From IMG/VR virus record IMGVR_UViG_3300045996_002966, positions 1 through 64,000 of that record: a stretch of 64,000 nt of DNA; one strand, written 5' to 3'. Within the stretch, counting starts at the first letter, position 1, and every line of letters starts with the position of its first letter. Origin of the DNA: a virus. Positions 4,434 through 9,951 of the stretch are shown piece after piece. Under the pieces are notes generated by a model. It worked only from the letters and a program-made list of their open reading frames with translations. It was not told the DNA's origin and did not search any database. The translations under genes were made by a program, and so were the position numbers.

Positions 4434-5222
4434 ATGAAGCCCCGACGAGAACGGCAGCGGGATGACCGCGACTATGACACCAGCCAGCTCAATGAACGTT
4501 TCCATGCGGGGGTGATGGGCCGGGATTATTCTGCTCACTTCTTCCGTTGGTCCTTCGCCCGGCGTCTGATCCTTAAGGACGATGATGTGCTAGAGGTCGG
4601 CTGCGGTCAAGATAAACCTCTGTCCAAAATTCTCGTACGGGGTCCGGTTGCTCTGGTGAATACCTATACCGGCGTTGACCTTAATCCTCTGAAGCAGTCG
4701 GCGATCAAAAAGCTAACCTTCAAAGGGGAGTTCAACTTCGTAGAGCGGTACCAGGAGCTGCTCGATGAGCGTGATGGTGAGGGCTTCGATATCCTGATTC
4801 ACCTCGAGGTCATCGAGCACATGCACGTGGACCTTGGGAAGAAGATGCTCAAGGCCTGCTACCGGTGCCTGCGCCCCGGCGGAACGATGATCATGTCTAC
4901 GCCGGCCTATGACGGGAAGCGCCACGCGGCGAACCACATTCACGAGTACACCGTACCCGAGCTGCAGAAGTACGTGGAGGTAGCTGGCTTCGTGGTCGAG
5001 GATCGCTTCGGTACCTTTATGGACATCCGCCACATCGGGAAGGCCGCGCCCAGCATTCACGACGACGACACGAATGACCCGTCGGAAATCAACGAAGCTG
5101 TGACCATCGCGAATCGGTACCTGAGCAAATACTACGACACCCACGCGCTTTCGTGCTTCTTCGCGCCGCTCTACCCTGACCACGCTCGCAACAACCTTTG
5201 GCTCTGCAGGAGACCTGACTAA
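4434..5222 (+). CDS. Class I SAM-dependent methyltransferase
   Basis: This 262-residue protein has motif I LEVGCGQDKPLS (about residues 44-55), an acidic motif II in YTGVDLNPL (about 80-88), and FDILIHLEVIEHM (about 118-130), where the VIEHM box is typical of the Methyltransf_11/23 group. These are usually small-molecule, protein or glycan methyltransferases rather than DNA enzymes, and I cannot assign a substrate. Its SD (AGGGAG) is well placed. It ends one base before the start of the cytosine methyltransferase gene, so both are probably co-expressed. A role in modifying an unusual base or cell-surface molecule is possible. Confidence 0.8.
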   Translation: MKPRRERQRDDRDYDTSQLNERFHAGVMGRDYSAHFFRWSFARRLILKDDDVLEVGCGQDKPLSKILVRGPVALVNTYTGVDLNPLKQSAIKKLTFKGEFNFVERYQELLDERDGEGFDILIHLEVIEHMHVDLGKKMLKACYRCLRPGGTMIMSTPAYDGKRHAANHIHEYTVPELQKYVEVAGFVVEDRFGTFMDIRHIGKAAPSIHDDDTNDPSEINEAVTIANRYLSKYYDTHALSCFFAPLYPDHARNNLWLCRRPD

Positions 5223-5223
5223 A

Positions 5224-6570
5224 ATGGCTCGACAACTCACCGCCCTAGGAGGCGCGATCTTCGCTGGCCTGTTCACGGTCGGGATCAAGGAAGCTGGCTA
5301 TAGGGTGCTCGGGCACCTGGAGTTCGGCGACTACGGCGTCGCAACGGCGCGCAAGAACTTCCCCGACCTTGACATCCGCGTAGGTACGCACAACTGGAAT
5401 CCCGAACGGTTCACCGGCAAGGTGGATTTCATGTACACCAACCCGCCGTGCGCTGCCTGGTCGACCCTGGGCCACCCCACGCGGAAGTGGCATGAGCAGA
5501 CCGAGCGACTCTCCTGCGTGCAAGACCTGGTGCAGGCGGGTCTCATCGTGCAGCCGAAGGCTTGGTGCTGGGAGAGCGTGACGGGGGCGTGGGGGAAGGG
5601 TCGCGAATTCGTGCTCGAGCAGGCCCGGATCTGGAATCAGCACGGGTACCACGTGACGGTGCTGCTCCAAAACAACATGTACCTCGGCTGCCCGCAGTTC
5701 CGCAAGCGAATGTTCCTCATCGCTCACAAGCACCCGATTGTCTGGATGCCGTTCGTAGAATCACGGACTACGGGGCAAATCCTGAAGCAGATGCCGAAGC
5801 GAGGCCTGCCGAAGCCCCCGTTGGTACCGCCACCGCTCTCGCCGAGGTTCCTGGAGCTATGGCACCGCTCGGATGGCCACGGGCGCCTGCGGCGCGCCTA
5901 TGAGCAGATGAGCGAGGAGGAGCTAGCGAAGCACCCCGGCATCATCCCGTTCGCCGTCGTGCGGCGGCTCAACCCAGACAAGCCCCCACCGGTGTTCCTG
6001 CAGAGCGCGATGCGGCTCCACCCGACGGAGCCCCGTGAGTTCACCTACCACGAGTGGCTCGAGTTCACGGGGCTGCCGCACAACTGGCAGACGGCCTGCA
6101 CCAGCTTCAACTCCTTCTCCCTGGAGCTATCCCGCGCCGTCATGCCGCCGGTCGGCCGCTGGCTCGGGGAGTCGATCGCCGCCGGTCTCAAGAAGAAGCC
6201 CCTCGACATCAACAAAGGCGTGACCACCAGGGTGGTGAATTTCATGTTCGGGCCGGAGCGGGCCAGCGAGGAGGAGCTATGGCGCACGACGGAGTTCGCC
6301 GACCTCTCGACTCCTGTTTGGAGCCCCGCGACGCCCCCGCCGGAAGCGCCCAAGCGGGTGGCAAGGATAGGAGCCCCGCCCCGCGCGCCAAGCCCAGGGC
6401 GCCCCGGTATCGGGGCTCGAATCAGGGATCTGCTGCAAGACCCGCGAGGCTTTATCACCGAGCAGATTCTCACAACGATCCGGCAGGAGTTTCCCCAGTC
6501 CAAGGCCACCGCGGCCGACGTGTCCTGGAACCGCGGCAAACTGAAGAAGGAGCAGCAACGTGCAGCCTGA
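5224..6570 (+). CDS. DNA cytosine-C5 methyltransferase with C-terminal WYR-like domain
   Basis: A 448-residue Dcm/C5-MTase family protein. Motif I is GGAIFAGLFTVGIKEAG (about 9-25), the catalytic Pro-Cys loop is NPPCAAWSTLG (Cys76), the ENV-equivalent is CWESVTG (about 115-121), and motif VIII is CPQFRKRMFLIAH. The enzyme would transfer methyl from SAM to C5 of cytosine in a short target. The target-recognition region looks short. Beyond the MTase fold, the last 55 residues (IGARIRDLLQDP...DVSWNRGKLKKEQQ) match the WYR domain of the small proteins encoded at 1951-4344, with WYR changed to WNR. Overlap with the next gene is 11 bases. It could protect phage DNA from host restriction. Confidence 0.85.
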   Translation: MARQLTALGGAIFAGLFTVGIKEAGYRVLGHLEFGDYGVATARKNFPDLDIRVGTHNWNPERFTGKVDFMYTNPPCAAWSTLGHPTRKWHEQTERLSCVQDLVQAGLIVQPKAWCWESVTGAWGKGREFVLEQARIWNQHGYHVTVLLQNNMYLGCPQFRKRMFLIAHKHPIVWMPFVESRTTGQILKQMPKRGLPKPPLVPPPLSPRFLELWHRSDGHGRLRRAYEQMSEEELAKHPGIIPFAVVRRLNPDKPPPVFLQSAMRLHPTEPREFTYHEWLEFTGLPHNWQTACTSFNSFSLELSRAVMPPVGRWLGESIAAGLKKKPLDINKGVTTRVVNFMFGPERASEEELWRTTEFADLSTPVWSPATPPPEAPKRVARIGAPPRAPSPGRPGIGARIRDLLQDPRGFITEQILTTIRQEFPQSKATAADVSWNRGKLKKEQQRAA

Positions 6571-7084
6571 AGAGTTGAAAGAAAACCTCTCGATTCTAAT
6601 CGACTTCATCCACACCGCGCCGGGACGTCTACCCTTCCGGGTCCAGACGGCCATTGCGTTGCTAGAGCAGGCCATGCCACCGACGATCGAGGAACCGCCC
6701 GACCTCATCGGCGACGTGCGGGCCTTCGGTGAGAAGTTCGGCCTGCCGCTCTCCGACACGCCGCACCTGCTCAAGCCCGAAGATTGGGCTTACCGCGTTC
6801 ATTTCCTCCACGAGGAGCTGATGGAAACGGAGGAGGCCTATGATGTAGACGACCTGGTGGGCGTGGCCGACGGTCTCATCGACCTCATCTACGTGGCCAT
6901 TGGCACGCTCCAGTTGATGGGCGTCCCGGTCGCCGAGGGTTGGCGCGAGGTGCAGCGAGCTAACATGACCAAGGAGCGGGTGGCCAAGGCCGAGGATTCC
7001 AAGCGCGGTCACGCCTGGGATATCAAGAAGCCCGAGGGGTGGGAGCCGCCCAACTGGGAGCGCGTGCTCGGGAGACCTACATGA
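6560..7084 (+). CDS. MazG-like nucleotide pyrophosphohydrolase
   Basis: It starts at GTG 6560, behind GAAGGAG, inside the end of the methyltransferase gene. The 174-residue product has the all-alpha NTP-PPase signature EELMETEEAYDVDDLVGVAD followed by GLIDLIYVAIGTLQLMGV (about residues 91-128), with the E..E...D metal ligands in place. The family hydrolyses (d)NTPs to monophosphates and PPi; T4 gp56 dCTPase/dUTPase belongs to the same broad fold. Placed directly before a dNMP kinase, TS homologue and dCMP deaminase, a dCTPase or dUTPase role is the natural inference. Exact substrate not provable from sequence. Confidence 0.8.
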   Translation: MQPEELKENLSILIDFIHTAPGRLPFRVQTAIALLEQAMPPTIEEPPDLIGDVRAFGEKFGLPLSDTPHLLKPEDWAYRVHFLHEELMETEEAYDVDDLVGVADGLIDLIYVAIGTLQLMGVPVAEGWREVQRANMTKERVAKAEDSKRGHAWDIKKPEGWEPPNWERVLGRPT

Positions 7085-8007
7085 GATCCGCTCGCCTGAC
7101 CATCTTCGAAGGGCCGGACGGCGCGGGCAAGACCACCCTGGCCCAGGCCTACGCCAAGGAGACCAACGCGCGGTATCTGCACTTCGATGCGCTGCGCGGT
7201 ATCAAGACCGGCGCCGGCCTGGCTCGGCACTACGCCGAGGCGATCATGCCCGCGGTGCTAGGCTACCAGGACATCGTCATGGATCGCTGCTGGCTCTCGG
7301 AGGAGCCCTACGCCGAGGTCTACCACCACGAGCAGGGCAGGCTCGGCCGAGCCCATACCCGAATGCTCGAGCGCCTGGCCCTGCGCTGCGGCGCGGTCGT
7401 GGTTCTTTGCGCTCCGCCCCTGGAGGTGGTACGCGAGAACTACCTGTCGCGCCAGGGTGAGGAGATGCTCGAGAGCGTGGCCCAGCTGGAGCAGGTCTAC
7501 GATCGCTACAAGCGTCACCTGCTTACGCACCTGCCCTGCGTGGCCTACGACTACACCGGGAAGACCGGCAACGCGACGGTGCCGCCCTACTACCTCGAGG
7601 AGTTCCGCGGTCAGCGCCACTCGCTGGCGGTGGGGAGCACGGCGGGTAACTGGGATGCGCGCGTAGTCCTCGTGGGGCAAGACTTCGCTCGGCACAAAGA
7701 CCTGGATTCATACTACCAGTGGCCCTTCGCGTCGTTCGCCGGCGCTGGCTGCTCGCGCTTCCTCACCGATCACCTGGAGGAGTGGGGTATTCTCGAGAGC
7801 GAATTGCTTTGGGTCAACGCCGACATGGTCCTCGAGGCGATCCCGTTCGGCGAGCGCAAGGTGATAGCTCTGGGCGAGCTGGCGTCGATGGCTCTCAACG
7901 TTCTCGACGTGAGGCATACGCTTATCTCTCACCCGCAGTATCATAAACGATTCAAGGCTGGCGAGCCTTATCTGCTCGGCCCTCAGCTCGTGGAGATGTT
8001 GAAATGA
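7081..8007 (+). CDS. dNMP (thymidylate-type) kinase fused to a uracil-DNA-glycosylase-like domain
   Basis: ATG 7081 overlaps the previous stop. Residues 1-185 form a P-loop nucleoside monophosphate kinase: Walker A EGPDGAGKTT (10-19), a DR motif (68-69, MDRCWLSEEPYAE), and a lid-like Arg-rich region. Residues 192-308 are a second domain, RVVLVGQDFARHK..WPFASFAGAGCSRFL...KVIALGELAS...ISHPQYHKRF, whose pattern (VLVGx, PF..FAGxG..L, ALGxxA, HPxYxxRF) resembles UDG superfamily family 4/5 proteins. The glycosylase match is my inference; the canonical acidic/Asn residue of motif A appears replaced (VGQDF). Single-domain dTMP kinases are about 210 residues, so the extension is real. The gene is coupled to the TS homologue by a 4-base overlap. 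Confidence 0.75.
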   Translation: MRSARLTIFEGPDGAGKTTLAQAYAKETNARYLHFDALRGIKTGAGLARHYAEAIMPAVLGYQDIVMDRCWLSEEPYAEVYHHEQGRLGRAHTRMLERLALRCGAVVVLCAPPLEVVRENYLSRQGEEMLESVAQLEQVYDRYKRHLLTHLPCVAYDYTGKTGNATVPPYYLEEFRGQRHSLAVGSTAGNWDARVVLVGQDFARHKDLDSYYQWPFASFAGAGCSRFLTDHLEEWGILESELLWVNADMVLEAIPFGERKVIALGELASMALNVLDVRHTLISHPQYHKRFKAGEPYLLGPQLVEMLK

Positions 8008-8864
8008 CACCTGACCTCACGACCGTCTGGTTGAACACGTTGCATATGGTAGTCTCCGAAGGCCACCAGGTCTCGCCGCGGGGAAAGCTGACCCTGGAGA
8101 TTCCGCAGCACACCAGCGTCGTTAACATGCGGCGCCCGGTGCTCACCGCCCCAGCTCGGAAGCTCTCCTACAAATTCATGGCGGCCGAGGCTTATTGGAT
8201 CCTCTCGGGCGATAACTCCGTGAAGGGAATCGCGCCCTACAACGCGAACATCGCCCAGTTCTCCGACGACGGGGAGACCTTCTTCGGTGCCTATGGGCCG
8301 AAGATCCTGGCTCAGCTCGACTACGTGGTAGCGAAGCTGCTCGAGGATCCGACCAGTCGTCAAGCGGGGCTGACCCTCTGGCGGGAGAACCCACCGACGA
8401 CGAAGGACGTACCCTGCACGGTCGCCATGTTCTTCGCGATTCGCGGGTCGCGGTTGAACCTCCACGTCTTCATGCGGTCGAACGACGTGTGGCTCGGCAT
8501 GCCCTACGACGTCTTCAACTTTTCCATGCTGGCCCATCTGGTTGCCGCCAGGATCAACCGCGAGCGGCAGAACGACCAGATCATGGACGGGCAAGTTCCC
8601 ACGCCAATCAGCGTCGTGCCGGGTAACCTCTACCTGACCGCGGCGAGCTGCCACCTCTACCGTGAGCACTGGGACGCCGCGGCCGACGTGTTTAGCTCGT
8701 CCCTGGGCCTGCAGCCGGCCACGCCGGAGGGACTGTTCCTGAATGAATGGCTGCTGATGGATTGGCTAAAGAAGCTACGCGACGCCGGACCGGAATCCAC
8801 GATGCGCTGGTGGACGCAACCAGCGATCGAGACCACTACCCCAACCCTGGAGGAGAAGTTATGA
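8004..8864 (+). CDS. Thymidylate synthase homologue, probable dCMP (or dUMP) hydroxymethylase
   Basis: The 286-residue protein has the TS fold motifs: the folate/nucleotide region AEAYWILSGD (61-70), the catalytic Cys138 in DVPCT, and RSNDVWLGMPYDVF (158-171). In thymidylate synthases the last motif is LGLPFNIA, with an Asn that selects dUMP. Here Asp169 replaces Asn, the substitution known from T4 gp42 dCMP hydroxymethylase and sufficient in TS mutants to accept dCMP. The Trp-rich IWDEW segment of TS is also missing (NIAQFSDDG). I therefore infer a hydroxymethylase acting on dCMP, with dUMP as the alternative. It overlaps its neighbours by 4 bases on each side. Confidence 0.8.
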   Translation: MTPDLTTVWLNTLHMVVSEGHQVSPRGKLTLEIPQHTSVVNMRRPVLTAPARKLSYKFMAAEAYWILSGDNSVKGIAPYNANIAQFSDDGETFFGAYGPKILAQLDYVVAKLLEDPTSRQAGLTLWRENPPTTKDVPCTVAMFFAIRGSRLNLHVFMRSNDVWLGMPYDVFNFSMLAHLVAARINRERQNDQIMDGQVPTPISVVPGNLYLTAASCHLYREHWDAAADVFSSSLGLQPATPEGLFLNEWLLMDWLKKLRDAGPESTMRWWTQPAIETTTPTLEEKL

Positions 8865-9424
8865 AACTCGAGGAGCACACCCTCGGTGCCGCGATGGCGG
8901 CGATCGAGACCCTGCAAGACCTCGGATTTACCTTCGACAACTCGATCAACCGGCGTTGGAGCCCGCCGAAGAACCTACCGCCTCACATGAGACCAATCCC
9001 GCTGGAGGAGCAGTTTCGCCAGGTGATGATGGCGCTGGGCTTCCCTTCGGCTCAGCACCTCTCGAGTGGCGACGTGCTGACGGTCGCGGTGGCTGGAATG
9101 AAGGTCTTCCAAGAGGCTGACCCTCGCAACCCGCGCACCGGACCATTCGCCAAGGATCTTGAGCGCCGTTCGGCGGACCAAGTAGCTTTGAACGCGGCGA
9201 CCCCGCTCAATACGCTGCCGGCCGCGGAGAAGGAAGCGCGAAAGCACGACCAGACCAAGGTCGGGCTCGAGGCGGAGAAGGAGCTGGTTCGGCAGGTGAT
9301 CCGCGAGGAGCTGAAGATTTCATTGGACCGCCGGCTTAACTACGATTCATGGGATTGGGTTGTTTCGCTTTACCTGGTAAATGACGAGGCCTTTGATTCT
9401 GACGCGGTGAGGGAAGTGCGATGA
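8861..9424 (+). CDS. Hypothetical protein in nucleotide operon (187 aa)
   Basis: ATG 8861 overlaps the previous stop and the gene's stop overlaps the deaminase start, so it is translated as part of the nucleotide operon. The product is soluble and helical. It contains a conserved-looking early segment (MKLEEHTLGAAMAAIETLQD) and a charged C-terminal helix (EAEKELVRQVIREEL). I recognise no family. Its position between a hydroxymethylase-like enzyme and dCMP deaminase suggests a partner or accessory role, but nothing in the sequence proves it. Confidence 0.6.
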   Translation: MKLEEHTLGAAMAAIETLQDLGFTFDNSINRRWSPPKNLPPHMRPIPLEEQFRQVMMALGFPSAQHLSSGDVLTVAVAGMKVFQEADPRNPRTGPFAKDLERRSADQVALNAATPLNTLPAAEKEARKHDQTKVGLEAEKELVRQVIREELKISLDRRLNYDSWDWVVSLYLVNDEAFDSDAVREVR

Positions 9425-9951
9425 CCCGCCCGACCAAAGACCTCTGGGCGATCAACCTCGCGACGATGACCGCCGAGCGAAGCACCTGCGCGCGGCGCCG
9501 CGTGGGCTGCGTGCTGACCAACGTCCGCGGTCACGTGCTCGCTACGGGGTACAACGGGGTGGCGGCGGGGCTACCTCACTGCAACCAGGAAACGGGCAAG
9601 GAGATGAAGCTCCGATACGTGGACGATGCCTCCCATGAGTCGGCGACTTTCTTGGCGCCGGTCTACGCTCACGCCTGCTCCGGCGCGGCCTCGCCGAGCG
9701 GTACGAACCTGGATGCCTGCGAGGCGATCCACGCCGAGCAGAACGCGCTGCTGCAGTGCCACGACGTCTTCGACATCCATACCTGCTACGTGACCGCCAG
9801 CCCCTGCGTGACCTGCACCAAGCTCCTGCTCAACACCGGCTGCCAGCGGATTGTGTTCGTCGAAGAGTACCCGCAGCCCGAGGCCGGCCGGCTCTGGAAG
9901 AAGTCGCACCGCCAATGGCTTCACGTCAGCGAAGTAGGCCACAGTGAGTAG
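9421..9951 (+). CDS. Deoxycytidylate (dCMP) deaminase
   Basis: A 176-residue zinc-dependent cytidine/deoxycytidylate deaminase. The HAE motif (104-106, EAIHAEQNALLQ) supplies a zinc ligand and the proton-shuttling Glu. The PCVTC motif (128-132) supplies the other two zinc ligands. An insertion of about 35 residues before HAE is usual for phage and eukaryotic dCMP deaminases. The enzyme converts dCMP to dUMP, feeding dTTP synthesis and lowering dCMP. It is the last gene of the coupled run that starts at 4434, and promoter P3 begins one base after it. Confidence 0.92.
   Translation: MTRPTKDLWAINLATMTAERSTCARRRVGCVLTNVRGHVLATGYNGVAAGLPHCNQETGKEMKLRYVDDASHESATFLAPVYAHACSGAASPSGTNLDACEAIHAEQNALLQCHDVFDIHTCYVTASPCVTCTKLLLNTGCQRIVFVEEYPQPEAGRLWKKSHRQWLHVSEVGHSE

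Follow-up and report, generated by a model that had tools for sequence, protein, structure and literature searches.

A phage protein joining a thymidylate-kinase-like domain to a uracil-DNA glycosylase fold in a predicted 5-hydroxymethyl-dCTP synthesis operon

Introduction

The closest described counterparts of the phage domain considered here are the family-4 uracil-DNA glycosylases (UDGs) and UdgX, represented by UdgX of M. smegmatis, UDGa of Thermus and TM0511 of Thermotoga. The active site of UdgX has Glu52 to activate the nucleophile or water; the uracil is held by Asn91 together with His178, and Arg184 is the DNA-binding residue (PMC10359453). UDG-superfamily domains joined to an enzyme of DNA or nucleotide metabolism are known from phages, namely in SPO1 gp31, from a phage with hydroxymethyluracil DNA, and in the polymerase I of PaBG (for PaBG, PMC7412058); in both cases the UDG domain lies at the N-terminal side of a DNA polymerase. 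In the SPO1 copy (VQENP, TSI), both motif A and the Asn position read as degenerate. The superfamily also includes Brig1 and Brig3, bacterial anti-phage proteins tied to hydroxymethylcytosine phage DNA, of which Brig1 excises glucosyl-hydroxymethylcytosine and has Glu where uracil-reading UDGs have Asn (PMC11078745).

Phages with modified bases must exclude deaminated or unmodified pyrimidines from their DNA. To our knowledge, no dedicated proofreading step after hydroxymethylation is known. Regarding nucleotide synthesis, hydroxymethyl-dCTP is made in phages of the T4 type by a dCTPase, the hydroxymethylase gp42, the dNMP kinase gp1 and a dCMP deaminase, and T4 lacks the UDG-fold domain. In animals, DNPH1 removes hydroxymethyl-dUMP (derived from hydroxymethyl-deoxycytidine) before it is activated by thymidylate kinase (PMC10603095).

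The locus described here lies in a window of 64,000 nucleotides, positions 1 to 64,000 of the virus record IMGVR_UViG_3300045996_002966, which makes up most of that 71,959-base record. The fusion of kinase and glycosylase fold encoded there is conserved, has free-standing relatives in large phages and could be such a proofreading step; if so, phage DNA modification would be tied to the recent bacterial glycosylase defences Brig1 and Brig3.

Architecture and Distribution of the Fusion Gene

The fusion gene encodes a 308-aa protein composed of a thymidylate-kinase-type P-loop kinase (residues ~1-165) and a UDG fold (residues ~186-308), with the following features:

7081..8007, plus strand: fusion gene, kinase and UDG-fold domain, 308 aa (ORF translation; whole-chain AlphaFold model)
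7081..7575, plus strand: thymidylate-kinase-like P-loop kinase domain, residues ~1-165 (PHROG 761; Foldseek; P-loop and DR motifs)
7111..7134, plus strand: P-loop GPDGAGKT, residues 11-18 (sequence; kept in fused relatives)
7636..8004, plus strand: UDG-superfamily domain, residues 186-308 (family profile against PDB; Foldseek; PF03167 in 22/40 relatives)

The gene overlaps both of its neighbors by ATGA: its start codon shares this sequence with the stop codon of the MazG-like gene before it, and its stop codon with the ATG of the gene that follows. For the whole 308-aa chain, AlphaFold gave a model with a pLDDT of 93.5 and a pTM of 0.92. Residues 1-161 match PHROG 761, 'thymidylate kinase' (E 3e-18), and the kinase model matches thymidylate kinases, deoxynucleoside kinases (dNK) and YorR of B. 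subtilis in the PDB (Foldseek). The P-loop GK and the DR motif were detected in 19/19 aligned fused relatives, and the N-terminal half thus has the P-loop, the DR motif and the fold of the thymidylate-kinase-like P-loop kinases. NCBIfam and PADLOC searches of the 308-aa protein returned P-loop matches only.

Relatives of the C-terminal domain were gathered from isolated phages and IMG/VR, giving a family of 46 members, about half of them fused to a kinase and half free-standing. The architecture of kinase and UDG fold recurs in more than 20 phage sequences that have diverged from one another, those of the isolated phages AXL3 and PW916 among them; the fused gene of AXL3 (gp29) had previously been described only as a thymidylate kinase. 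The initial annotation knew of no standard pathway with this architecture, and none is described in the literature searched, where no report of a kinase-UDG fusion was found either (coverage incomplete). What appears to be new is the clade and the domain architecture, inside the known UDG superfamily.

In a tree of the family, fused and free-standing forms occupy separate parts, consistent with a single switch, the root and the long branches being uncertain. The free-standing forms make up two groups by gene neighborhood, the first of which, in large phages, adjoins terminase-, gp32-, UvsX- and UvsW-like genes and the second of which lies near oxygenase-like and nuclease-like genes (all names read from sequence). 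Several free-standing loci, including L050, L053 and L060, are replication/recombination clusters, and the phage records concerned reach 389 kb.

A search of 84,980 species genomes of bacteria and archaea detected a single relative, in a metagenome bin, and the family therefore appears to be viral. This relative (L086:6653-7432) combines a ~125-aa N-terminal part that lacks a P-loop with a UDG-like domain that is intact; some 1 kb upstream of it lies a hydroxymethylase-like gene. It was considered as a copy with a decayed kinase, which was rejected as its N-terminal part is not significantly kinase-like; it represents a third architecture instead.

Fold and Family of the C-terminal Domain

Residues ~186-308 of the window protein alone matched nothing in Pfam or PHROG and gave nothing or chance matches among PDB sequences, so that a family profile was needed. 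This profile retrieved UdgX, family-4 UDGs and SMUG1 from the PDB (best E 3e-4), and 31 of the 33 PDB sequences listed for it were UDG-superfamily chains, the other two being weak. When 40 relatives were scanned singly, 22 matched the UDG family PF03167 (E<=0.1; best 9e-7), with scores below Pfam's own cut-off for the members inspected, and the next Pfam families were matched by one member each. Modelled by AlphaFold, the domain takes a UDG fold (pLDDT 85), and a Foldseek search of the PDB with this model placed UDGs in each of the first 38 ranks, with probability 1.00. The fusion of a nucleotide kinase to a UDG-like domain proposed in the initial annotation is thus borne out, by PHROG and fold for the kinase half and by profile and fold for the UDG half. 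The C-terminal part could, as had been considered, have been an extension of NMP kinases; free-standing proteins of the same domain exist, however, so that it is not a kinase extension and works without a kinase.

The domain shares its fold with family-4 UDG/UdgX, with the motif-A Gly-acid, the stacking Phe, the base-reading Asn and HP...R of motif B in register. It differs in being shorter (~120 aa), in being either kinase-fused or free-standing, in having HPQYxKRF in place of HPS..LLR and, in the window member, in the Gln at the position of the motif-A acid. No conserved set of the family-4 Fe-S cysteines was detected in the family alignment, the window domain having one Cys, and the segment holding the UdgX R-loop KRRIH with the covalent His109 is absent from that alignment (compared with the UdgX-type protein L087). 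The domain thus belongs to neither family 4 nor UdgX.

Active-Site Residues

Residues were mapped by alignment to UdgX and counted over 46 sequences, which gave the following positions:

7675..7683, plus strand: motif A, G199-Q200-D201, Q200 being at the position of UdgX Glu52 (46-sequence alignment; UdgX mapping)
7723..7728, plus strand: P215-F216, base-stacking Phe position (Phe in 46/46)
7816..7818, plus strand: N246 (WVNA), base-reading Asn position, equivalent to UdgX Asn91 (Asn in 46/46)
7930..7953, plus strand: motif B, HPQYHKRF, residues 284-291, with His284 and Arg290 equivalent to UdgX His178 and Arg184 (both 46/46)

Phe216, Glu239, Asn246, Gly265, Ala268, His284, Pro285, Gln286, Lys289 and Arg290 are invariant in all 46 sequences. 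Because the search for relatives used a pattern based on HPQY[HW]KR, the conservation of motif B was partly selected, the other positions being unselected. Position 200 is Asp in 26 sequences, Glu in 19 and Gln in one, the sole Gln being that of the window protein (codon CAA). The initial annotation stated that the expected catalytic acid or Asn of motif A is lacking, which is correct for this protein, where Gln200 is adjoined by Asp201, but does not extend to the family, as the residue is present in 45/46 members and the other UDG active-site positions are invariant. Gln200 may be a one-base sequencing error in the window record, or Asp201 might compensate for it, by analogy with the Asp of UNG GQDPYH. 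The copies of phages AXL3 and PW916 have the motif-A acid. Glu239 (7795-7797), invariant in 46/46 sequences, lies outside the classic UDG motifs and is a candidate family-specific functional residue.

Regarding the ligand, Asn246 is as in uracil-reading UDGs and contrasts with the Glu of Brig1, which makes a uracil-type base (uracil or hydroxymethyluracil), and not cytosine, the likeliest predicted ligand. A role in removing unmodified nucleotides, also suggested at first, is correspondingly less likely: for cytosine it was ranked low on the basis of the invariant Asn246.

Operon and Link to Hydroxymethylcytosine

The genes around the fusion gene include:

4434-5222: SAM methyltransferase
5224-6570: C5-cytosine methyltransferase
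6560..7084, plus strand: MazG/PRA-PH nucleotide pyrophosphohydrolase, possible dCTPase (PF01503, 6e-14; PHROG 671, 4e-26)
8004..8864, plus strand: thymidylate-synthase (TS) homologue with dCMP-hydroxymethylase signature (PF00303; two signature residues)
9421..9951, plus strand: dCMP deaminase (PF00383, 3e-17; PHROG 174, 1e-36)

These matches agree with the setting first recognized for the gene, between a MazG-type pyrophosphatase and a hydroxymethylase. A MazG-like gene neighbors the fusion in most fused loci and a dCMP deaminase gene lies near nearly all fused copies. Two features are reported to mark dCMP hydroxymethylases, an acid at the site of T4 Asp145, three residues ahead of the catalytic Cys, and Asp where T4 has Asp179 (PMC6400193). 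The window TS homologue has Asp at both positions, and in 21/21 readable fused loci a TS homologue with both features was present, with Glu at the Asp145 position in two. The fused loci are thus predicted, from their sequences, to encode a 5-hydroxymethylcytosine pathway, that is, an operon for 5-hydroxymethyl-dCTP synthesis, with the same predicted set of activities as in T4; the kinase of the operon, however, is thymidylate-kinase-like and not T4 gp1-like, and bears the UDG-fold domain. The DNA of AXL3, which has the fused gene, was cut by 2/37 restriction enzymes, both with A/T-only sites (PMC7504290). TS homologues occur in 8 of 11 records with free-standing members, every one of the eight having one or more copies with both features, and a dCMP deaminase is present in 7/11; this association of free-standing members with hydroxymethylases is only suggestive.

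A marine phage (L005:6470-7228) carries the same operon with the kinase unfused; the TS homologue there, possibly a dCMP methylase, keeps the dCMP-type Asp and has Val in place of the hydroxymethylase acid (Asp145). A requirement of the UDG domain for dCMP modification as such was rejected, given the kinase without a UDG domain in this phage. The SAM-methyltransferase gene upstream is kept in many fused operons and is perhaps involved in further DNA modification.

Proposed Function and Alternatives

The best explanation, which is put forward tentatively, is that the domain represents a base quality-control branch of the UDGs within a hydroxymethyl-dCTP operon. As part of this operon, the N-terminal domain would be a phage (d)NMP kinase phosphorylating the hydroxymethyl-dCMP supplied by the neighboring hydroxymethylase, and the C-terminal domain would use the invariant Phe, Asn and His to bind a uracil-type base, most members probably cutting the N-glycosidic bond with the motif-A acid. 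Since dCMP deaminase and hydroxymethyl-dCMP share one pool, deaminated by-products (uracil or 5-hydroxymethyluracil, as DNA base or nucleotide) would arise and would be removed or rejected; by analogy with animals, hydroxymethyl-dUMP could also form as a by-product in a phage in which dCMP deaminase and dCMP hydroxymethylase operate together. The task would be equivalent to those of animal DNPH1 (on the nucleotide) and SMUG1 (on DNA), the analogy being purely functional, since SMUG1 belongs to a different UDG branch and DNPH1, a retaining N-glycosidase, to another family altogether. Alternatively, it may be the kinase that delivers the glycosylase to DNA under replication. With Gln200, the window protein may be a weaker catalyst, or the role of the acid may be taken over by Asp201 next to it.

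The UDG fold and family, the conservation of the active site, the hydroxymethylase loci and the restriction resistance of AXL3 count in favor of quality control, as do Asn246 in place of the Glu of Brig1, the dCMP deaminase of nearly all fused loci, the TS homologues in records with free-standing members, the dependence of animals on DNPH1 and the existence of the domain without a kinase. The missing motif-A acid of the window protein counts against it, as do the many hydroxymethylcytosine phages, T4 among them, that manage without a UDG-fold domain, and the derivation of the proposed substrate from one residue position and gene context. An ExoIII-type AP endonuclease, taken as a mark of a base-excision pathway, was not detected in 14 of these phage records, and any DNA repair would therefore need host enzymes. 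The copies in AXL3 and PW916, both isolated phages, have the motif-A acid and allow the idea to be tested directly.

Rather unlikely, yet the strongest of the rivals, is a non-enzymatic binding module, either a nucleotide sensor or a tether holding the kinase to the replication machinery for precursor delivery. Such a module would accommodate Gln200 of the window protein and the SSB-, UvsX- and UvsW-like genes (names read from sequence) beside some free-standing copies, and the poxvirus processivity factor, which is a UDG, is a precedent, as are the UDG domains fused to DNA polymerases in SPO1 and PaBG (PMC7412058 for PaBG). A pure scaffold would, however, need neither the acid kept in 45/46 sequences nor the base-pocket residues kept in all.

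Slightly more doubtful is a direct part of the UDG family in hydroxymethyl-dCTP synthesis, whether as a nucleotide-level glycosylase acting on hydroxymethyl-dUMP/dUMP on one chain with the kinase, which would be a viral UDG-fold counterpart of DNPH1, or through a new base-modifying chemistry on hydroxymethylcytosine.

Hypermodification is improbable. The model is provided by hypermodified-thymine phages, which have a hydroxymethyluracil kinase and glycosylase-fold transferases; by analogy, hydroxymethylcytosine would be phosphorylated by the kinase on its hydroxymethyl group, and the UDG-fold domain, flipping the base, would swap the phosphate for another group. The presence of a kinase and a base-binding fold in one protein beside a hydroxymethylase would fit, as would the broad restriction resistance of AXL3 DNA, but hydroxymethylcytosine alone could explain the latter. 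Against it, the kinase is of the thymidylate-kinase type, free-standing members occur without a kinase alongside and the domain keeps the residues by which a glycosylase reads uracil and performs catalysis.

Slightly less probable still is an attack on DNA with ordinary bases (cytosine or uracil), by which host DNA would be destroyed or unmodified cytosine purged from phage DNA. Hydroxymethylcytosine phages commonly destroy cytosine-containing DNA, for example with the T4 endonucleases, and the UDG superfamily is able to evolve the reading of cytosine derivatives, as in Brig1 and Brig3; here, however, Asn246 is invariant where Brig1 has Glu, and fusion to a precursor kinase fits an attack on host DNA poorly. 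An assembly or reading-frame artefact, or a chance likeness to UDGs, has practically no standing and is already refuted, since more than 20 diverged sequences from phages, AXL3 and PW916 included, have this fusion, and since the family profile and the fold contradict chance.

Other Features of the Record

The record also encodes a primase-like protein and, in its last 8 kb, a family-A DNA polymerase, an exonuclease and a helicase. No glucosyltransferase was detected among the ORFs scanned in these last 8 kb. The end of the record (70982-71959) is a 978-base near-copy of its start (1-978), with 46 mismatches (95.3% identical). This points to an assembly across two variants of a genome that is circular or terminally redundant.
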